Shown here: positions 1,505-10,861 of the stretch, piece after piece
Numbering within the stretch: the stretch's first letter is position 1
Layout: every line of letters begins with the position of its first letter
Source of the DNA: Antrihabitans stalactiti
GTDB lineage: Bacteria; Actinomycetota; Actinomycetes; Mycobacteriales; Mycobacteriaceae
Reading direction: 5' to 3'
NCBI RefSeq assembly: GCF_012932915.1
Contig: NZ_VCQU01000013.1
Span: forward strand, 1 to 64,000
Length of the DNA stretch: 64,000 nt
The notes under the pieces: model-generated
Told to the model about the DNA's origin: nothing
The model's input: the letters and a program-made list of their open reading frames with translations, nothing else
Databases searched by the model: none
Made by a program: the position numbers and the translations under genes

Positions 1505-3880
1505 GTGCCAGGTCAGCCGGTCGACGCCCTGCTCGCGTATCTGAAGTCGCTCGATGCTGCGCAATTGGCGACGGTCCTGCGCAATCGCAACGACGCGTTG
1601 AGCGTGCCGTGGCCGGCGCACATCTCGGACCTCGCGACTCGGCTGACCAGGTACGACTCCGTGATGGACGCCTACGCCCGGTTGACACTGCCGCACCTGG
1701 AGGTTCTCGGAGCCATCACGTTGGCGCGATCGCTCGGACCGTCGGTCGCCGTCGATGACGTCGCGAAGTGGCTCGGCAGCGACGTCGACGTGGTTCGGGG
1801 ATTCCTCACCGACCTCGCCGACTGCGCTCTTGCCTGGAGCGCTGCCGATGGCAACGTCGTCAACGCCTTCAGATTTCCACTGATCGGCACCCGGCTCGGC
1901 CCGCCATTGCGGACCGTTCTGGAAGGGGCAACGCTATCGGCTCTTCGGCTCGTTGCCGCGAAACTGAAGGTCAGGGGCGACGGGACCAAGCTGGAGGTGA
2001 TCGACCGGCTTGCGAAGTTCCTGGGGGACCGCAACGAGGTCATCGAACTTGTGGACGATGCTCCGCTGGATGCGCGGGATCTGATTCTCGACTGCGCCGA
2101 GCAGGGCGCCGACATCGAATACATGGACAGATCGGCATTCGGGGGGCGCCGGGCGCAGTTCACCATGCGTGGCGATTGGGCCGTCGACCGCGGACTGTTA
2201 TGGCCGGACGGGCAGGGTTCCGCGTCGATGCCGCTAGAAGTTGCGGTCGCGTTGCGGGGGACTGGCTGGCGACTGCCATTCCATCCGCAACCGCCTGCTA
2301 TCGCGGTGGCGCCGGTGTATGTGGAACACGTCGAGAGCGAGGCTGCGTCACGGCTGCTCCGCATGCTGGAAGTGACGTCGAATATCCTCGATGGTGCTGC
2401 AGCCGAACCGATTCCGTTGCTGAAGACTGAGCAGGTCGGAGTTCGCGCGGTGAAATTGTTGGCCAAAGATCTCGGCGCCGACGTCGAACAGGTCACTCTC
2501 GCTTTGCAATTGGCGACCGACGCTAGGCTTCTCGACCCGCTGCCGCCCGATCCGCCGAAGGGTCGCCGCCGCAAGTCCGCGCCCGAGCCGACCAGCACGG
2601 GACTTATTCCAGGTGAGTCGGCGCCTAGTTGGCTCGCGGCGGCGCCGGACGAACGGGCGACGAGGCTCCTCGACACATGGTGGGAAGCGAGCTCGACCCC
2701 ACTACTGGATGCAAAGATCGCCGCCGAGCTTCGCGACAGCACCGCACACGGCATGGTTCGGATACACCTGCTCGAGGAGTACGCCCGCGTCGAGCCGGGC
2801 ACCGGCTTCGCTGCGCCCTACGACCTGACCCCGTTGCTCTTGTGGCATGCACCGCTGGTCGAGACCGAGCACCTGGACCCCCTACTCGCCGGCGCAACCA
2901 AGGAGGCCGAGCTACTTGGTCTGCTTGCGTTCGGTACAGCAACATCGTTGGGGCGAAGCATGGTTGGTGGTGGACTCGATGAAGCTGTCGCCGAGCTCGT
3001 GTCGGGTGCGCATACGACGGCGGTCATCGGCGCGGACCTCACCGCGGTCGTGTTCGGTCCGCCGACACCCGAGCTTTCGCGATTGCTCGACCGCGTCGGG
3101 ACGCGCGAATCCGGTGGTACGGCGACGATGTGGCGCTTCACCCCGGACAGCGTCCGCTCTGCCTTCGACGACGGCGCCACGGCTGAGCAGCTGCTCGACG
3201 GTCTCCGGGTGATCGCGGAGTCGGAGATCCCGCAGGCCTTGGAATACCTGATCAACGACGTTGCTCGCACCCACGGGAAGTTGGGCGTCGTCGAGCTTGG
3301 GTGCGCAATTCTGTCCGATGACCCGACCGTCTTGCTCGAGTTGGTCGCTACCCGCAAGCTTGCGAAGTTGGAACTCGCGTCGCTCGCACCCACGGTGGTC
3401 GCGTCGAAAAGCAGCGCTGCAGAGGTTATTTCGGCCTTACGAGCCGCTGGCTACGCGCCCGTGCAGCGTCCTGCTGACGGAAGCGTGCAGGTCAATGCTC
3501 CAGCGGTCTCGTCGGAGTCCGCAGATTCATCAACGCTGACCGACGACACAATTGCCATAGTCGCCGACCCCGACCGCCACGCTCGCCACCTGATCGAGAC
3601 CGCAGACAGCGCTCCGCCGACGGCGGCGACAACGCACGATCTATTTCAAGCGTTGCGCGGGAAGGGCGAACCCCAAGCCATTTGGCATCTGCTCGAGGGC
3701 CGGCCGGCTCGCATCACTCACGACGGAACGACGCACGTGGTGCACAGTCCGAGTGTCAGCGGGCAGACATTGACCGCCTGGAGCGTGACCACCGACCGCT
3801 ACGAGGAGTTCCCGCTGGACGCCACAACTGTGAGTGAATTTCACCCCTCGGAGGGTGAGACGCGCGCACGGCGGGCGTAG
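1505..3880 (+). CDS. Helicase-associated domain protein (Helicase_C_3 type, XPB N-domain-like)
   Basis: A 791-residue protein resembling the large mycobacterial helicase-associated proteins that carry an XPB/Ssl2-like N-terminal damage-recognition-type domain but no ATPase motor; no Walker motifs are visible. The N-terminal half is built of winged-helix-like segments. The C-terminal third (about 510-680) contains the PQALEYLINDVARTHGKLGV segment typical of Helicase_C_3. In mycobacteria the homologue lies beside the XPB helicase gene; no XPB gene is nearby here. The start is GTG. The last 17 residues, beginning TVSEFHPSEGETRA, are encoded by a family A hairpin repeat, so the native C-terminus probably ended earlier or was extended by repeat insertion. 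It converges with the flavoprotein gene and overlaps it by 40 bp. Confidence 0.7.
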   Translation: MPGQPVDALLAYLKSLDAAQLATVLRNRNDALSVPWPAHISDLATRLTRYDSVMDAYARLTLPHLEVLGAITLARSLGPSVAVDDVAKWLGSDVDVVRGFLTDLADCALAWSAADGNVVNAFRFPLIGTRLGPPLRTVLEGATLSALRLVAAKLKVRGDGTKLEVIDRLAKFLGDRNEVIELVDDAPLDARDLILDCAEQGADIEYMDRSAFGGRRAQFTMRGDWAVDRGLLWPDGQGSASMPLEVAVALRGTGWRLPFHPQPPAIAVAPVYVEHVESEAASRLLRMLEVTSNILDGAAAEPIPLLKTEQVGVRAVKLLAKDLGADVEQVTLALQLATDARLLDPLPPDPPKGRRRKSAPEPTSTGLIPGESAPSWLAAAPDERATRLLDTWWEASSTPLLDAKIAAELRDSTAHGMVRIHLLEEYARVEPGTGFAAPYDLTPLLLWHAPLVETEHLDPLLAGATKEAELLGLLAFGTATSLGRSMVGGGLDEAVAELVSGAHTTAVIGADLTAVVFGPPTPELSRLLDRVGTRESGGTATMWRFTPDSVRSAFDDGATAEQLLDGLRVIAESEIPQALEYLINDVARTHGKLGVVELGCAILSDDPTVLLELVATRKLAKLELASLAPTVVASKSSAAEVISALRAAGYAPVQRPADGSVQVNAPAVSSESADSSTLTDDTIAIVADPDRHARHLIETADSAPPTAATTHDLFQALRGKGEPQAIWHLLEGRPARITHDGTTHVVHSPSVSGQTLTAWSVTTDRYEEFPLDATTVSEFHPSEGETRARRA
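3827..3871. repeat. Hairpin repeat family A, copy 3 (inside two convergent coding ends)
   Basis: ACTGTGAGTGAATTTCACCC pairs with GGGTGAGACGCGCGCACGG. On the plus strand it encodes the tail of the helicase-associated protein. On the minus strand it contributes the last seven residues (RVSPSEG) and the TGA stop of the flavoprotein. It would form a stem in either transcript and could act as a shared terminator of two convergent genes. Confidence 0.85.
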
Positions 3881-6525
3881 GCGCGGACATCGGAATCGGT
3901 GTCGTTCTCTGCGACCAGCAAACTGGCTTGTGCCGCAGCGTCATCGGGCCACACGCTGAGCGACAGGACCGCCGCCTTACGGACGTCCAGGTGTGGGTCC
4001 TCCAATGCGACGGTCAAGGGTGCGACGGCGATGTCTGGGCGCGCCCCGGCCAGACCGCGCGCCGCGCCTTGCCGCACCTGCCACGCCGATTCCTTCAGTG
4101 CGACAGCCACAATGGCGGCGTCGACGTCGTCGCAGCCGAGCGACGCGAACGCTGTCAAGGCTGCTGCCCGGACGAGGGGATCGCGGTCGTCGACCAACGC
4201 CCGGACCGTGTCGAGCCCGCCGGAACCGATCGTCGCCAGACCGTTCGCCACCGTCACGCGGACTTCGCGGTTGTCGTCACGTTGCGCCGAAGTCACTGTC
4301 TCCCAGTCGTTCAGCGATACCAGCGCCCGGACCGCTTCGATCCGTACCCGGTGATCGTTGTCGGTGAGAGCGGTCGCGAACTCTGCCGTCGAGCCGGCTT
4401 TCAATGCGCGTAAGAGGTCGACGACCGCAGCGCGGACCGTTGCGTCGTCGGAGCCCAGGTAGGCGCTGAGCCCGTCCGCCGACGGCAGCACCTCGACCAA
4501 CTCGCGAAGGCCCTCGGTGGCCTTTCGCCTGACTTCCGCGCCTGGATCGCCAAGCGCGCCGATCAGCGGAACGGCGAATCCGTCGGGCGTACCTTCGGTC
4601 AGAACCGAGACCGCTGTCGCGCGGACCTGCGGGTCGGCGTCGGTCAGGAATGGCGAAAGCTCCTCGACCGTAGGTGAATCCAATGCGAGGACCTCGACGA
4701 TCCGCGGCGACGAGAGCTGCGGACGTTCCTCCTTGAGGCGAGTCGGCGACTCCAGAGGTGCTCGGCCGCCGACCAATTCGGGCTGCTCGACCGCGATCAC
4801 GTCTCCCGTCGACGGCACACCGTCGAGACCGGGAACGGGTACGAAATACGGTGCGACGGGACGCTTCAGGAACTGCATCTCGCCGTCGTCGCCGCGTTTG
4901 AGGTTCAGGTGGTAGCGCCATTCGACGTCGTCGCGCTGCGGGATATCGGACCGCTCGTGGTAGAGCCCCCAGCGAGATTCGGTGCGCGTCAACGACGATC
5001 GCGACGCCATCTCGGCGCAGTCGCGGATGAACGACACCTCGGCGCAACGCATGAGCTCATGTGGTGTGGTCGCACCCATCTCGGCGATCTCGTTGCGCAT
5101 TCGCTCGAACGTTTCGACCGCGATCGACAGCTTGGTCGCCGTCTTCGGTGGGGCGACGTAGTCGTTGACGAAGCGTCGCAACTTGTACTCGACCTGCGGC
5201 TGCGGCGGACCGTCCGGGTGCTTGAGCGGTTCGTAGACGAGCTCGTGCGCTGCGGCGAGCTGGTCCGCGGGCAAGTCCGCCGGAGCCGACACATCCGCCA
5301 ACGTCGACGCGGCGTGCCCACCGGCGAGGTCGCCGTAGACGAACGCGCCGATCATGTAGTTGTGCGGCACACAGGCCAGGTCGCCGGCTGCGTACAACCC
5401 GGGAACTGTGGTGCGCGCGTGCTCGTCGACCCATACTCCGGATGCGGAATGCCCACTACAGAGCCCGATTTCGGAGATGTGCATCTCGATGTCGTGGGTT
5501 CGGTAGTCGTGGCCACGGTTCTCGTGGAAGGTGCCACGAGTCGGGCGCTCGGTGGTGTGGAGAATCCCTTCCAGCGTGCTCAATGTCTCGTCGGGCAGGT
5601 GCGACACCTTCAGATAGATCGGTCCGCGTGCAGACTCGATCTCGTCCTTCACTTCAGCCATCATCTGACCGGACCAGTAGTCGGAGTCGACGAATCGCTC
5701 ACCCTGGGCATTGACCTGGTAACCGCCGAACGGATTCGCGACGTACGCACACGCCGGACCGTTGTAGTCCTTGATCAGCGGATTGATCTGAAAGCACTCG
5801 ATCCCTGACAGCTCGGCACCGGCGTGATAGGCCATCGAGTAGCCGTCGCCCGCGTTCGTCGGGTTCTCGTACGTGCCGTAGAGATACCCGGATGCTGGAA
5901 GTCCGAGGCGACCGCACGGACCGGTTGCGAGGATGACGGCCTTCGCTCCGACGGCGACGAATTCGCCTGTGCGCGTGTGCAACGCGGCAGCACCGACTGC
6001 GCGACCATTCTCGGTCAGCACCCGGACCGGCATGAGGCGGTTCTCGATGGTGATCCGCTCACGCATCTTTCGTTGTCGCAGAACGCGATACAGCGCCTTC
6101 TTGACATCCTTGCCTTCGGGCATCGGCAGCACGTAGGAGCCGGACCGATGAACGCGGCGGACGGCATACTCGCCGTACTCGTCCTTCTCGAACTTGACGC
6201 CGTAACGCTCGAGCCGTTGCACCATCGCGAAGCCGCGGGTCGCCGTCTGATACACCGTGCGCTGGTTGACGATTCCGTCGTTGGCCCGCGTGATCTCTGC
6301 GACGTAGTCCTCCGGCACCGCCTTGCCGGGAATGACGGCGTTGTTGACGCCGTCCATGCCCATGGCGAGCGCGCCCGAGTGGCGGACGTGGGCCTTCTCG
6401 AGCAGCAGGACTTTCGCACCGTTCTCCGCGGCGGTCAGCGCGGCCATCGTGCCCGCGGTGCCACCGCCGATCACGAGTACGTCGCAGTCCATGCGGATCG
6501 TGTCGGCCAGGTCAGGTATCAACAT
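3841..6525 (-). CDS. Fumarate-reductase/APS-reductase-like FAD subunit fused to C-terminal HEAT repeats
   Basis: An 894-residue flavoprotein. Residues about 12-580 form the FAD-binding/capping domains of the succinate dehydrogenase-fumarate reductase-adenylylsulfate reductase superfamily: dinucleotide motif GGGTAG at 20-25, an SGALAMGMDG segment, ILATGPCGRLG, and the late FAD motif PGLYAAGDLACVPHNYMIGAFVYG. From about residue 610 to the end there are roughly eight HEAT-like helical repeats (units such as DPQVRATAVSVL, DPLVRAAALTAFASLG, HLDVRKAAVLSLSVW), which ordinary members lack. It ends a six-gene operon with an 8-Cys ferredoxin, as expected for an AprA/AprB-like pair, and its start overlaps the ATPase stop (TGATG). 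The substrate is unknown; the SsuA/TauA-like transporter suggests a small imported compound, possibly a sulfonate, but that is inference. The last seven residues come from a hairpin repeat. Confidence 0.8.
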   Translation of the reverse strand: MLIPDLADTIRMDCDVLVIGGGTAGTMAALTAAENGAKVLLLEKAHVRHSGALAMGMDGVNNAVIPGKAVPEDYVAEITRANDGIVNQRTVYQTATRGFAMVQRLERYGVKFEKDEYGEYAVRRVHRSGSYVLPMPEGKDVKKALYRVLRQRKMRERITIENRLMPVRVLTENGRAVGAAALHTRTGEFVAVGAKAVILATGPCGRLGLPASGYLYGTYENPTNAGDGYSMAYHAGAELSGIECFQINPLIKDYNGPACAYVANPFGGYQVNAQGERFVDSDYWSGQMMAEVKDEIESARGPIYLKVSHLPDETLSTLEGILHTTERPTRGTFHENRGHDYRTHDIEMHISEIGLCSGHSASGVWVDEHARTTVPGLYAAGDLACVPHNYMIGAFVYGDLAGGHAASTLADVSAPADLPADQLAAAHELVYEPLKHPDGPPQPQVEYKLRRFVNDYVAPPKTATKLSIAVETFERMRNEIAEMGATTPHELMRCAEVSFIRDCAEMASRSSLTRTESRWGLYHERSDIPQRDDVEWRYHLNLKRGDDGEMQFLKRPVAPYFVPVPGLDGVPSTGDVIAVEQPELVGGRAPLESPTRLKEERPQLSSPRIVEVLALDSPTVEELSPFLTDADPQVRATAVSVLTEGTPDGFAVPLIGALGDPGAEVRRKATEGLRELVEVLPSADGLSAYLGSDDATVRAAVVDLLRALKAGSTAEFATALTDNDHRVRIEAVRALVSLNDWETVTSAQRDDNREVRVTVANGLATIGSGGLDTVRALVDDRDPLVRAAALTAFASLGCDDVDAAIVAVALKESAWQVRQGAARGLAGARPDIAVAPLTVALEDPHLDVRKAAVLSLSVWPDDAAAQASLLVAENDTDSDVRAYARRARVSPSEG

Positions 6526-7280
6526 CAGTGGTCCAGAGCCCCAAGGATTTCGGTGCGAGCGGTGAGTGTGTCGGGCTGTGCAGCGGCCTTGCGATCGCGG
6601 GGGAGTGGCACGTCGACGATGGTGCGTAGTCCGGCGCCGGCGCGGCCGAGCACCGCGACGCGGTCGCCGAGGAACAGCGCTTCGTCGACGTCATGAGTGA
6701 CGAAGACGATGGTGGTCGGATGGGTCCGCCAAGTGTCGACGAGCAAGCGTTGCATCGTGGCGCGGGTCTGCGTGTCGAGGGCGCCGAACGGCTCGTCCAT
6801 GAGTACCGCCCGAGGTGACCCGGCGAGGCTGCGCGCCAACTGAACTCGCTGACGCATGCCGCCCGACAGGTCTCGCGGCAGGTACTTGTCGAAGCCGTGT
6901 AGCCCGACTTCTTCGATCCAGCGTTCGGCTGTCGAGCGGCGCCGACCACGGGGTATGCCTCGAAGCGCAAGGGCAAGTTCGATATTGGAGCGTACGGTGC
7001 GCCACGGGAGTAAGGCGTCGTCCTGGAACACGAGCGCACGGTCGGCGGCAGTTCCCGTCACTGGGTCGCCGTCGGCGAGGATCTGGCCGGCGGTCGGTTT
7101 GAGTAGCCCGGCGAGCGCGCGCAGCAAGGTCGACTTGCCGCAGCCGGACGGGCCCGTGAGGACGAGGATCTCGCCGGGAGTGGCTTCGAGGCTGAGGCTT
7201 TCGATAACGGTGTTGTCGCCGTAGCCGATTCGTACGTCCTCGACCTGCAGCGAAATCCCCGCGGTGATCGTGGCGGTCAT
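6525..7280 (-). CDS. ABC transporter ATPase, nitrate/sulfonate/taurine (SsuB/TauB) type
   Basis: A 251-residue nucleotide-binding subunit. Walker [10 protein letters not shown] is at 43-51, the Q-loop region FQDDALLPW at about 85-93, the signature LSGGMRQRV at 138-146, Walker B AVLMDEP at about 158-164, and the switch-loop VTHDVDEA follows. The DDALLPW context is characteristic of the SsuB/TauB/NrtD group. I take the start as the ATG that overlaps the permease stop (ATGA); a longer open frame upstream is only the shadow of the permease gene. It energises import together with the next two genes and is followed by the flavoprotein. Confidence 0.9.
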
Positions 7281-8134
7281 CGCGACAGTCCTTCCCGTGG
7301 TAGCCAGCGCGTCACGCGGCGGCCGAGCAGTTCGACCGCTCCGGAAGTCAGGAACCCGAGCACTCCGATCGTGATCATCCCGACGAAGACGCCCGGGTAG
7401 TCGACGATCGTGTACGCCTGCCACGTCCGGTAGCCGACGCCGAGACGTCCGGAGATCATCTCGGCGGAGATGACACAGATCCATGCCACACCGATGCCGA
7501 CGGACAATCCACTGAACACACCCGGCAGGATCCCCGGAATGATCACCCGGACAAGGGTGTCCAGCCGACCGCCGCCGAGAGTGCGGACCGCGTCCTCCCA
7601 GATGGTCGGCAGCGCACGGACCGCGTGGCGGGTGCTGACCATGATCGGGAAAAACGCGGCAGCGAAGGTGATGAAGACGATCCCCGACTCGTCGCTGGGG
7701 AAGAGCAAGATCGCGACGGGAACGAGGGCGATCGCGGGGATCGGGCGTGCCAGCTCGGTCAGCGGTCCGAGAATATCGGCGAACCACCGTGACCTTCCGA
7801 GAGCGATCCCGGCCGCGACACCGACGACCGCCGCCAGTCCGAACCCGCTGAGGATCCGGACCAACGACTGCGCGAGGTCCAGCCAATAGGTGCCGGTACC
7901 GAGTTGCTTGCCGAAGTTGCTAACGATCTCGGTGACCGTCGGCAAGGTGTCGAAGCGAAGCCACGCACGGACGTTGTGGGTTGTGAGGAACTGCCACAAC
8001 CCGATTGCGACTGCAACCGATGCCAGCCGAACGATTCGGGACCGCCACGGCGAGGGCCGCCGTACCGCCGGTCGGGCGGCTGGCACCGCGACCGGCTCGA
8101 CGGACTTCACGGCTGGCAGGGTTGCCGATGTCAT
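7277..8134 (-). CDS. ABC transporter permease, SsuC/TauC type
   Basis: A 285-residue inner-membrane subunit with about six hydrophobic segments. The EAA loop for docking the ATPase is visible as [23 protein letters not shown] at about 188-210. The N-terminus has a short proline/arginine-rich cytoplasmic tail before the first helix ([13 protein letters not shown]). It overlaps its neighbours by 4 bp on both sides (ATGA), so it is translationally coupled with the binding protein and ATPase. Confidence 0.9.
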
Positions 8135-9531
8135 TGCCGGACTTCCGTCACAGCTTGCTCGTAGGAGACGACGGTGGCCGTCGGGTGCTGGGTGCGGTAG
8201 CGGTCAGCGGCAGCGGTCGTCGTGAACGGCAGGTAGTTGTCGCCATCGTGGACCCAGATCGCCTTGTCCGCGAACCAGCGGGTGCCCAATTCGGCGTCCG
8301 GAACGTAGGCCGCGCGAACCTTCTTACCCTGTGCCTGAGCCTGTTTGACGGCGCGGAGGAGGGCGGTGGGGTTGGTGACCGGTTGGGCCTGCTTGTCGCC
8401 GTCGAACCACACGTCGCCGGCCAGTGCCGGGTCGCCCGGCAGCGCGCTCGGATTTGCGTTGTTGGCGAGCGCTGTGTCGTAGTTCAGTCCGGCTTCTTCG
8501 AAGGCCTCGCGGATCGGTCCGTCGTTGACGAACTGGTCGATGTCGAGGTCCGCGAAATCGCCGATCGACTTCAGGTATTGCACATCGCCTTTGAACGCGT
8601 CGATCAGCTTCGGCTTGAGCGTGGTATCGAACGACGTGCCACCCGGACCGTTGTAGAGGTACACGACCTCAGCTGGCAGTCCCGAGCCATCCGCGACGAG
8701 TTGTGCTGCATCCAGCGGGCTTTCGGTGATGAACTTCGTTGCATCCAGTTGTGCCTGCAGGAACGCGTCGACCACTTCGGGGTGGTCCTGGGTGTACGCC
8801 TTGCGCGCGACAACGCCGTGGAACGTCGGGACGTTGAGTTCGGCACCGTCGTAGAGGAGCTTGGCCTTGTTCTGGAACACGAGCAGCCCTGGCCACGCGA
8901 CGAACTGCGACAGCGCGCCCACCTGGCCGGATTCCAACGCGGACGCCCCGACCTGCGGCTGCTGGTTCAGCACCTCGACTCCGCTCGACGGATCGATTCC
9001 GTTGCGCGTCAGTGCCTGCACAAGCGTGCCGTGGCCGGCGGATCCGACACTGGCCGAGACCTTTTCGCCGGCGAGGTCTTTGATGCTCGTTGCAGTCGAA
9101 TCCGGCTTGACGACAACCATATTGAGCGCGCCCTTGGGGTTGTACCCGGTGACCGAGAGGAATTCGGTCTTGGAGCGCTCGTTGGCCTGGGTGCGGGATC
9201 CGTTGATCAGCAGCGGGTAATCGCCCATCGAACCGATGTCGATCTTCTCGGCCACCATCTGCGCCGTGATCGGAGCGCCGGTGTCGTAGTCCTGCCACTC
9301 GACCGTGTACTTCGCGCCGCCGCCATCCGTGATCTTCTGGAGGCGCTGCTCGAGGTAACCCTTGGCCTTGAGCAGTGTTCCGGCAGTGACGGTGTTGATG
9401 GTCTTCGACTGGTAGCCGATGACGACTTTCACTGCACCGGCTGGCGTGTCGTCGGACTTTTCGAGTGAGCAGCCAGCGGCAGTGACGGCGAGTGCTGCGG
9501 CGATGGCGATTGCCGAGAAACGGCGTTTCAT
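8131..9531 (-). CDS. Lipoprotein substrate-binding protein of the ABC importer
   Basis: A 466-residue extracellular solute-binding protein. It has a signal peptide with the lipobox VTAAGC, so Cys21 would be lipidated and the protein anchored to the outer face of the membrane. It belongs to the NMT1/SsuA-like group (periplasmic binding protein type 2), with segments such as SIGDYPLLINGSRTQ and LAGEKVSASVGSAGHG. At 466 residues it is clearly longer than typical SsuA or TauA proteins (about 320); the extra C-terminal portion (AAYVPDAELGTRWFADKAIW) resembles the longer SBPs found next to AprA-like flavoproteins, as I recall, but this needs checking. The ligand is not identifiable from sequence. 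Confidence 0.85.
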   Translation of the reverse strand: MKRRFSAIAIAAALAVTAAGCSLEKSDDTPAGAVKVVIGYQSKTINTVTAGTLLKAKGYLEQRLQKITDGGGAKYTVEWQDYDTGAPITAQMVAEKIDIGSMGDYPLLINGSRTQANERSKTEFLSVTGYNPKGALNMVVVKPDSTATSIKDLAGEKVSASVGSAGHGTLVQALTRNGIDPSSGVEVLNQQPQVGASALESGQVGALSQFVAWPGLLVFQNKAKLLYDGAELNVPTFHGVVARKAYTQDHPEVVDAFLQAQLDATKFITESPLDAAQLVADGSGLPAEVVYLYNGPGGTSFDTTLKPKLIDAFKGDVQYLKSIGDFADLDIDQFVNDGPIREAFEEAGLNYDTALANNANPSALPGDPALAGDVWFDGDKQAQPVTNPTALLRAVKQAQAQGKKVRAAYVPDAELGTRWFADKAIWVHDGDNYLPFTTTAAADRYRTQHPTATVVSYEQAVTEVRQ

Positions 9532-9549
9532 CCTGTGTTCCTTATTCTT

Positions 9550-9777
9550 TCAGCGGAGAAGGTAGGGCATGTTTACGGTGACGGCACCGGTTGGGCAGCG
9601 GGCTGCGCATGGGCCGCAATACCAGCACTCGTCGACGTGCATGAACGCCTTGCCGTTGTCGGGGTTGATGGCGAGCGAGTCGAGCGGGCAGATTTCGACA
9701 CACAGTGTGCAGCCCTTGATACAGAGCGATTCGTCGATCGTGACGGGCACGTCGGTGCGCTGATTGACCAGTGCCAT
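9550..9777 (-). CDS. Two-cluster ferredoxin (AprB-like 4Fe-4S protein)
   Basis: A 75-residue electron carrier with eight cysteines in two groups: Cys19, 23, 26, 30 and Cys51, 54, 57, 61, each followed by Pro at the fourth position (CP). This is the pattern of a 2[4Fe-4S] ferredoxin. No transmembrane segment or signal peptide is present, so it is cytosolic. It is the first enzyme gene after the regulator, overlaps the regulator stop by one base, and its likely partner is the flavoprotein at the far end of the operon, as AprB is for AprA. Confidence 0.9.
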   Translation of the reverse strand: MALVNQRTDVPVTIDESLCIKGCTLCVEICPLDSLAINPDNGKAFMHVDECWYCGPCAARCPTGAVTVNMPYLLR

Positions 9778-10538
9778 CAGGTGAGCTCCCAGCTGTTCGG
9801 GTCGGGTTGGCGGGTCAGGCTGCCGCGCATGGTGATTCGATCGCCACGCATGCGGATGTATTCGAGATCGACGGGGCGGCCGTCGTCGAGTTTGGTGAGC
9901 CGCTCCAACAGGAGCAGGGCTGCACCCTCGGGCATTTGAAGCGTTGCTGCAGAATGCGCGTCTGCGGTGATGGCTTCGAGCGCGAGGTCTGCCGAGCCGA
10001 GCGGTCCGCCGCTGATCTGCTCGATAAGGGCGAACACGTCGTTGGTCTCGAGGTCGCGTTCGAGGATTTCTGCGCCGATGTCCGGGACCAGGTAGGTCAG
10101 GTCGAGGCTGAGCGGCAGATCCCCGAGGTAGCGCAACCGCTCGATGTAAACGGCTTGCTCGCCGGGGTCGAGTTGCAGCCGGCGGGCGACGGCCGGCGGT
10201 GGCGTGACGAGGATGGCCGTGCGGACTTCGTTGCGCACGTCGCCGTGGCCTCGGAGTGTCTCCTTCAGACCCAGCAGCGCGTCGAGTCCGTGGTCGTATT
10301 TGCGTTGGGCGACGTGAGTGCCGACCTTCGGCGCGCGATCGATCAGTCCTTCGTCTTTGAGGAGCGCGAGGGCATCGCGAATCGTGTTTCGCGAGACATC
10401 GAACTCGGCTGCCAGTGCGCCTTCTTGCGGAAGCGCGCTTGTGAACGTGCCTGCGTGGATCTGCTGGCGCAAGATGTCGGCGACTTGGCGTGCCTGATCG
10501 GCGCGAGGTCGACGCAAGGGCGTTGGTTCGGGTGCCAT
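9777..10538 (-). CDS. GntR-family regulator with UTRA ligand domain (HutC type), first gene of the transporter-flavoprotein operon
   Basis: About 253 residues: an N-terminal winged helix (recognition region EGALAAEFDVSRNTIRDAL) and a C-terminal UTRA domain (IERLRYLGDLPLSLDLTYL and later ALLLLERLTKLDDGRPVDLEYIRMRGD). I place the start at the second of two in-frame Met codons because a strong AAAGGAGA sequence lies just before it; the earlier Met (five codons upstream) would bury that ribosome site in coding sequence. Being the first gene of the operon it probably autoregulates, sensing the transported substrate or a derivative. Confidence 0.88.
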   Translation of the reverse strand: MAPEPTPLRRPRADQARQVADILRQQIHAGTFTSALPQEGALAAEFDVSRNTIRDALALLKDEGLIDRAPKVGTHVAQRKYDHGLDALLGLKETLRGHGDVRNEVRTAILVTPPPAVARRLQLDPGEQAVYIERLRYLGDLPLSLDLTYLVPDIGAEILERDLETNDVFALIEQISGGPLGSADLALEAITADAHSAATLQMPEGAALLLLERLTKLDDGRPVDLEYIRMRGDRITMRGSLTRQPDPNSWELT

Positions 10539-10664
10539 TTCGTCTCCTTTCATGCCGCTGACCTGGTCGGATAGTTACGGTAGCGGCGTGCCGGCCGGTC
10601 TGATTCCGCCGTTGTCGTGCTTGGTGAACTGTCGATTTCTATGCGCCAGCTAACGAACGGCCTG

Positions 10665-10694
10665 TACCTGCGGAAAGGCGGCTGGCCGCAGGTA
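10665..10694. promoter_or_regulatory. Perfect 9-bp inverted repeat upstream of the GntR/UTRA operon
   Basis: TACCTGCGG, 12-base spacer, CCGCAGGTA. It is about 127 bases upstream of the chosen start of the GntR regulator. It could be an operator or a transcript hairpin; function is inferred only from symmetry and position. Confidence 0.4.
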
Positions 10695-10861
10695 TTACGC
10701 CACCGCCTGGGTTGGGGGTGGGGTTTTGATCAGGGTGATCGAAAGGCCCGATGGAACCGGATCGTTGTGCCCTGCGTCCAACGGGGCATGGGGAAGCGAG
10801 TTCGATGCACTGTCCGGCGACAGGGCGTCGGCTGCCGGGTGCGTGCGATTCGGCCGCAGAG

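Follow-up and report, generated by a model that had tools for sequence, protein, structure and literature searches.

The well-known aerobic routes to sulfur from sulfate esters and sulfonates run through hydrolytic sulfatases and oxygenases. Here, we describe a six-gene operon in a stretch of 64,000 nucleotides from Antrihabitans stalactiti (contig NZ_VCQU01000013.1, positions 1 to 64,000; hereafter the window), which encodes a flavoprotein, a ferredoxin, an ATP-binding cassette (ABC) importer, and a GntR/UTRA regulator. Among the described systems closest to this set, the flavin adenine dinucleotide (FAD)-dependent reductase of Methanothermococcus thermolithotrophicus (MtPAPSR) acts on 3'-phosphoadenosine 5'-phosphosulfate (PAPS) (PMC10322725). 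A flavin attack on sulfur has been proposed for PAPS reductase, and its reverse reaction was not measurable in MtPAPSR, whereas the dissimilatory adenosine 5'-phosphosulfate (APS) reductase, AprAB, is reversible (PMC10322725, section 9). For archaea, PMC7174415 mentions AprA-like proteins that lack the conserved residues of AprA. The asfRABC genes combine a reductase and a ferredoxin with a protein for binding the substrate, and asfA has been reported from Rhodococcus (PMC4267179); further background on asf is given in PMC9694294 and PMC2864759, the latter of which names Rmet_4334/5 of Cupriavidus metallidurans AsfA/AsfB.

We consider it an evenly balanced proposition that this is a sulfur-scavenging operon, in which sulfite is released reductively from a sulfur oxyanion brought in by the importer. 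As the substrate, a sulfate ester is favoured over a sulfonate, and we tentatively suggest a ferredoxin-dependent, APS-reductase-like "reductive sulfatase" that would convert imported organic sulfate esters to an alcohol or phenol and sulfite.

The first-pass annotation of the window had described six overlapping or nearly touching genes, and all six were present on the minus strand, where they occupy positions 3841-10553 in close succession, with intergenic gaps of -1, 18, -4, -4, and -1 bases in the order of transcription. The GntR gene extended to 10553, whereas the earlier annotation gave 10538, where an alternative start is located. A scan with the family alignment gave at least 597 matching stretches, at least 572 of which encode flavoprotein relatives; the 80 best-matching loci were used for comparison. 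As judged by the record titles, these were Actinomycetota throughout, and the nearest named relative among the matches listed was Antrihabitans (87%). Leaving out 8 loci with less than 5 kb upstream, the exact order GntR, ferredoxin, substrate-binding protein (SBP), permease, ATPase, flavoprotein was kept in 71 of the remaining 72 actinobacterial loci, and the grouping of the genes is therefore more than chance. Among 298 sampled genomes from the order, the flavoprotein was over its cut-off in 33 genomes and the SBP was found at E 1e-40 in 33; both were present in 32, with the flavoprotein alone in genome G248 and the SBP alone in genome G034. Beyond what had been noted before, the last third of the flavoprotein was found to consist of HEAT repeats, the SBP to carry an extra C-terminal domain, and the set to be common. 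A characterised pathway with this exact set, of which the first-pass annotation knew none, or any description of the six genes together, was not found in the open-access papers searched, most subscription papers lying outside the search.

The flavoprotein scored 1722.7 bits against the NCBIfam model NF010374 (PRK13800.1; cut-off 1196), with residues 1-888 covered, and was also over the cut-off of NF006131 (870.6 versus 587). Both models are named fumarate reductase/succinate dehydrogenase flavoprotein subunit; an NCBI model for the flavoprotein thus already exists, and NF010374 is a named family without an assigned function. Among the 25 NCBIfam models shown, the protein was below every cut-off for aprA, SdhA, FrdA, and NadB, with scores of 128.1 against 641.75 for TIGR02061 (aprA) and 148.8 against 567.3 for TIGR01812 (FrdA/SdhA). 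A PDB search with the family profile, in which three distinct sequences passed the limit of 1e-40, gave the Methanothermococcus PAPS reductase alpha subunit as the best match (E 3.4e-82), followed by two A. fulgidus APS reductase entries at about 1e-58. The AlphaFold model of the flavoprotein had a mean predicted local distance difference test (pLDDT) score of 50.3, and was rejected as a basis for a fold search.

A maximum-likelihood tree was inferred from 20 proteins, comprising 12 family members, AprA, PAPSR, three proteins of E. coli (SdhA, FrdA, and NadB), and three AsfA-like proteins. The family members grouped with AprA and PAPSR with 99/98 support, apart from SdhA/FrdA/NadB and the AsfA-like proteins, in a tree for which the program warned of long branches, and the split of the family from AprA had a support of 76/94. 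In the phylogeny against AprA, SdhA, and FrdA that had been proposed earlier as a check, the flavoprotein thus falls on the AprA/PAPSR side; a characterised family with a known substrate to which it belongs, named earlier as a refuting result, was not found. Of the resemblance to APS reductase previously claimed for both redox proteins, the part on the flavoprotein stands, given the PDB profile match and the tree. The ferredoxin, in which eight cysteines and Trp52 were invariant in 12 of 12 relatives, resembles AprB in a merely generic way, because polyferredoxins match it better.

Asn74 of AprA and the His at MtPAPSR position 346 were kept in all 12 relatives of the flavoprotein, the AprA sequence being compared without its own His region. 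Leu was found at the position of AprA Arg265 and Tyr at that of Trp234, again in 12 of 12, and Glu141 and Gln145 were not kept, in a part where the alignment register is uncertain; we take Arg265, Glu141, and Gln145 to be substrate residues of AprA. The genome also encodes an APS reductase of the CysH type, which narrowly exceeds its cut-off (238.4 versus 235.3), with an open reading frame named CysN-like by eye beside it, and three more matches to the PAPS_reduct family. The lack of sulfate activation that had been reported therefore holds within the window and not genome-wide. APS reduction was rejected as the function because of the Leu at the Arg265 position and the ordinary CysH, and the flavoprotein is AprA-type but probably reduces neither APS nor PAPS.

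The clue to the substrate lies in sister operons that contain genes for GntR, a long SBP, a permease, an ATPase, and an arylsulfatase, usually with a formylglycine-generating enzyme and SulP. SBPs like that of the window were located outside flavoprotein operons on Gordonia amicalis pCP113 and on a Paraburkholderia plasmid, beside GntR, an arylsulfatase, and a formylglycine-generating enzyme. Five SBP paralogues with 48-50% identity were fetched from the 298-genome sample. Four were encoded in operons with GntR, arylsulfatase, and SulP, three of which also had the formylglycine-generating enzyme, and the fifth, in genome G214, belonged to a flavoprotein operon. The sulfatases of all six sister operons contained CTPTR, with the catalytic domain at the very start and no signal peptide by eye, and are predicted cytosolic formylglycine sulfatases. 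In a 26-row SBP tree, the sulfatase-context proteins did not form one group but appeared at two positions, at each of which the joined neighbour was a flavoprotein-context protein (99/96 and 96/91), which suggests that sulfatase and flavoprotein-ferredoxin pair were swapped, in one direction or the other, in two places on the tree. One importer type serving either a sulfatase or the flavoprotein-ferredoxin pair therefore points to a sulfate ester, and the substrate, previously described as possibly organosulfur, can be narrowed to this favoured class. Arylsulfatase matches near two flavoprotein loci were distant (25-32%) and were rejected.

A survey of plasmids gave 44 records with the long SBP, cut by identity and coverage, among the best 60 of 470 records. 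The flavoprotein was located within 8 kb in 39 of these, a sulfatase operon was present in 2, and 3 were A. caldus records without a flavoprotein within 8 kb. On one of these three, NC_010600, the flavoprotein was about 12 kb from the SBP. On another, pLAtc3 of A. caldus SM-1 (L162:8869-11039), a shortened SBP of 332 amino acids ends at an ISL3-type transposase gene with a GntR gene beyond, and no flavoprotein is annotated in this stretch. It was also noted that a gyrB-like gene lies inside each of the five sulfatase operons examined from actinobacteria, of which one is plasmid-borne (L118:1552-3486, L152:10415-12328, L153:4109-6010, L155:5412-7313, L156:1457-3367). The products are 74-100% identical to the L118 copy, which is over the NCBIfam gyrB cut-off; no such gene was found in the Paraburkholderia sulfatase operon. 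The SulP gene of the Gordonia sulfatase operon (L118:6258-7678) matched as three separate pieces and may be broken.

The regulators of the two operon types are also alike. The GntR protein of the window was 45-48% identical to those of four sister sulfatase operons. In the regions upstream of GntR genes, taken from 73 loci and the window, the motif TGGCGYAA was present in 56 of 74, whereas 37 of 1460 random windows from these loci contained it; given the relatedness of the loci, the counts cannot be treated as independent, and coding sequence is among the random windows. The motif was oriented one way at 64 sites and the other way at none. It also precedes the GntR gene in 5 of 6 sulfatase operons and in G214, and the TGGCG(T/C)AA element is common to both actinobacterial operon types; none was found in five proteobacterial loci checked. 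A genome-wide regulon was rejected, since GGTGGCGYAAY matched 32 times and its reversed control 24 times, which is no clear enrichment. Comparison of 30 GGTGGCGYAAY loci with the reference proteins, ATPase matches left out, gave the window's own locus as the only match, and the element looks local to the operon.

Whether the redox pair reduces or oxidises its substrate had been left open by the first-pass annotation. Reduction is favoured because genes for ferredoxin reductases neighbour the set in two loci. In M. radiotolerans, the importer genes are followed by genes for FdxA and a ferredoxin-NADP reductase, and genome G214 encodes an NADPH-ferredoxin reductase-like protein close to the set, with a weak NCBIfam placement nearest to glutamate-synthase small subunits. 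Neighbours were tallied in 17 of 18 loci outside the 80-locus set (L009, L010, L012-L014, L101-L110, L154, L160, and L161, with the unannotated L160 left out). L101, L104, and L107 have TauE/SafE in the neighbourhood of the set, and L101, L107, and L154 have YeiH, giving one or the other exporter in 4 of 17 loci.

Reductive release of sulfite is thus supported by the AprA/PAPSR clade, the kept Asn74 and His, the importer held in common with sulfatases, the two swaps, the common upstream element, the FdxA and ferredoxin-NADP reductase neighbours, and the exporter genes. In the proposed mechanism, the compound taken up by the SsuABC-type importer would be an organic sulfur oxyanion, with a sulfate monoester, R-O-SO3(-), as the most likely kind. 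The ferredoxin, probably supplied from NADPH through a ferredoxin reductase, would pass electrons to the flavoprotein, whose FAD would attack the sulfur and cleave the compound to sulfite and the desulfated organic part, in parallel to APS and PAPS reductases. This release of sulfite would perhaps be independent of oxygen, and the sulfite would then enter ordinary reduction to cysteine. Control of the operon is probably exerted by the GntR/UTRA protein at the upstream element.

Several points weigh against this proposal. The reduction of an ester should be harder than that of APS, and the Leu at the Arg265 position means that the sulfur group must be held differently. The actinobacterial SBPs of the two operon types are just 48-50% identical, and their ligands may differ. 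The top eight fold matches listed for the predicted SBP structure (pLDDT 85.6) were all TauA or SsuA, so that sulfonate binders are the nearest. Actinobacteria seldom have the exporter genes near the set (none of the 72 loci has TauE, and 1 has YeiH). Luciferase-type monooxygenase genes lie near the set in three plasmid loci, from Cupriavidus, Paraburkholderia, and S. fredii, and suggest a possible oxygenase link. Finally, the proposal rests on sequence and predicted structure.

In a variant of this proposal, which we regard as rather unlikely, the flavoprotein would cleave the C-S bond of an imported sulfonate reductively to sulfite. The importer had been called sulfonate-type, and this was borne out by the SsuA/TauA fold and by the best NCBIfam models for the SBP, permease, and ATPase, which were those for sulfonate/taurine or nitrate. 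All of these scores were below the cut-offs, however, including 121.6 against 163.5 for SsuA_fam and 79.6 against 304.25 for the taurine model of the SBP. Furthermore, the exchange of the flavoprotein-ferredoxin pair with a sulfatase fits esters better, because sulfatases do not cleave C-S bonds.

Less likely still is an asf-type arylsulfonate system, in which the flavoprotein and ferredoxin would just pass electrons to a monooxygenase encoded elsewhere. The asfRABC system has the same pairing of reductase, ferredoxin, and binding protein, with asfA reported from Rhodococcus (PMC4267179), the genome encodes an SsuD-like protein (438 bits, below the cut-off of 518), and the monooxygenase genes in the three plasmid loci would suit such a role. 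Against this, a topology uniting the family and the AsfA-like proteins in a single clade was rejected (p-AU, the P value of the approximately unbiased test, 0.0079), in a comparison made without the published Rhodococcus AsfA and with a C. metallidurans AsfA/AsfB reference (L019) of inferred identity: of three matches on the replicon, it was the one adjoined by an eight-cysteine ferredoxin and an ABC permease. The genome also contains a separate AsfA/AsfB-like pair (C25:329300-330832), with identities of 57% and 48% to that of C. metallidurans and no importer-reference match within the 12 kb around it, and the regulator of the operon is GntR rather than LysR. An AsfA-like flavoprotein was found in 4 of 41 genomes searched. 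On the C. metallidurans comparison and the tree, the operon was rejected as asf. The Psychrobacter slf operon and Gordonia alkanivorans 135 were set aside as well, since the papers on them looked close but concern other genes.

We find it improbable, slightly more so than the asf-type system, that the flavoprotein reduces an imported compound without sulfur, such as an unsaturated or aromatic acid. Fumarate reductases belong to the wider superfamily, and other fold relatives of the SBP bind bicarbonate, nitrate, and pyrroloquinoline quinone. However, the SdhA/FrdA active-site motif HYxMGG was missing in 12 of 12 relatives, with Gly at FrdA His45, the covalent-FAD His, and both the AprA-type clade and the exchange of the importer with sulfatases argue for a sulfur compound. 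Oxidation of sulfite onto an organic acceptor is very improbable: dissimilatory APS reductase is reversible but MtPAPSR, the nearest solved relative, had no measurable reverse reaction (PMC10322725), and a dedicated importer and the exchange with hydrolytic sulfatases suit scavenging.

If the reductive cleavage of sulfate esters is true, it would be a route that is neither hydrolytic nor oxygenase-dependent and that delivers ester sulfur at the level of sulfite, skipping the ATP-dependent activation of sulfate. It would also give a function to a flavoprotein family still named fumarate reductase by NCBI, and the sister sulfatase operons offer a concrete, testable substrate class.

Table 1. Features of the operon and its upstream region in the window.
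Feature	Position	Strand	Evidence
GntR/UTRA (HutC-type) regulator	9777..10553	-	Pfam GntR 5.6e-17, UTRA 1.5e-31
Ferredoxin, two 4Fe-4S motifs, 75 aa	9550..9777	-	Pfam Fer4 families
SsuA/TauA-type substrate-binding lipoprotein, long form, 466 aa	8131..9531	-	NMT1 4.5e-13
Extra C-terminal domain of the binding protein, ~residues 372-463	8143..8418	-	Well-modelled
ABC permease	7277..8134	-	BPD_transp_1 1.9e-21
ABC ATPase	6525..7280	-	ABC_tran 2e-33; best NCBIfam models taurine/sulfonate-type ATPases, below cut-off
AprA-superfamily FAD flavoprotein with C-terminal HEAT repeats, 894 aa	3841..6525	-	NF010374
HEAT-repeat part of the flavoprotein, ~residues 610-888	3862..4698	-	HEAT_2 6e-27
Candidate control element GGTGGCGTAAT upstream of the GntR gene	10694..10704	-	TGGCGYAA enrichment

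The extra C-terminal domain of the SBP gave weak matches to NosL (copper chaperone-like) in two proteobacterial relatives, from Acinetobacter (9.3e-5; 23.2 bits, cut-off 24) and Cupriavidus (0.0079), where the domain is located at L014:9821-10348 and L009:10895-11416. The SBP of the window itself had no NosL match in this domain.

The flavoprotein family was found in Actinomycetota, Pseudomonadota, and Cyanobacteriota. In the annotated plasmid loci outside Actinomycetota, the flavoprotein and ferredoxin genes were accompanied by the HEAT repeats as a separate gene, with the importer nearby in most. Regulators of the GntR/UTRA type were present at the Cupriavidus, Acinetobacter, Aquabacterium, Paraburkholderia, and Acidithiobacillus loci, Crp/Fnr in rhizobia and Methylobacterium, and LysR and Crp/Fnr in two cyanobacteria. 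Genes for DUF971 or Mrp/NBP35, which are tied to iron-sulfur assembly, often adjoined the non-actinobacterial loci. As further sulfur context, genes annotated as 3-mercaptopropionate dioxygenase and rhodanese-related sulfurtransferase adjoin the set in Paraburkholderia (L109:16441-17698).

Among the known systems, the nearest solved flavoprotein is that of MtPAPSR (PDB 8a8o), with which the flavoprotein shares a two-cluster ferredoxin-type partner and the compared Asn and His positions, whereas the Arg at the AprA 265 position is replaced by Leu and the HEAT repeats and importer are added here. AprAB belongs to the same superclade (99/98) and likewise combines an FAD enzyme with an eight-cysteine ferredoxin, but the flavoprotein is below the aprA cut-off, does not keep Arg265, Trp234, Glu141, and Gln145, and is paired with a ferredoxin of half the length of AprB. 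The asfRABC system of Pseudomonas putida S-313, Rhodococcus, and others is alike in its reductase, ferredoxin, SsuA-type binding protein, and sulfur scavenging, whereas the operon described here has a flavoprotein of another clade, GntR/UTRA instead of the LysR-type AsfR, the HEAT part, and a long binding protein. SsuABC and TauABC have the same importer fold and gene types, but the importer here is below the family cut-offs and its binding protein has the extra C-terminal domain. The sister sulfatase operons have the same types of importer and regulator and, in actinobacteria, the same upstream element, with a hydrolytic sulfatase there in place of the flavoprotein and ferredoxin here.

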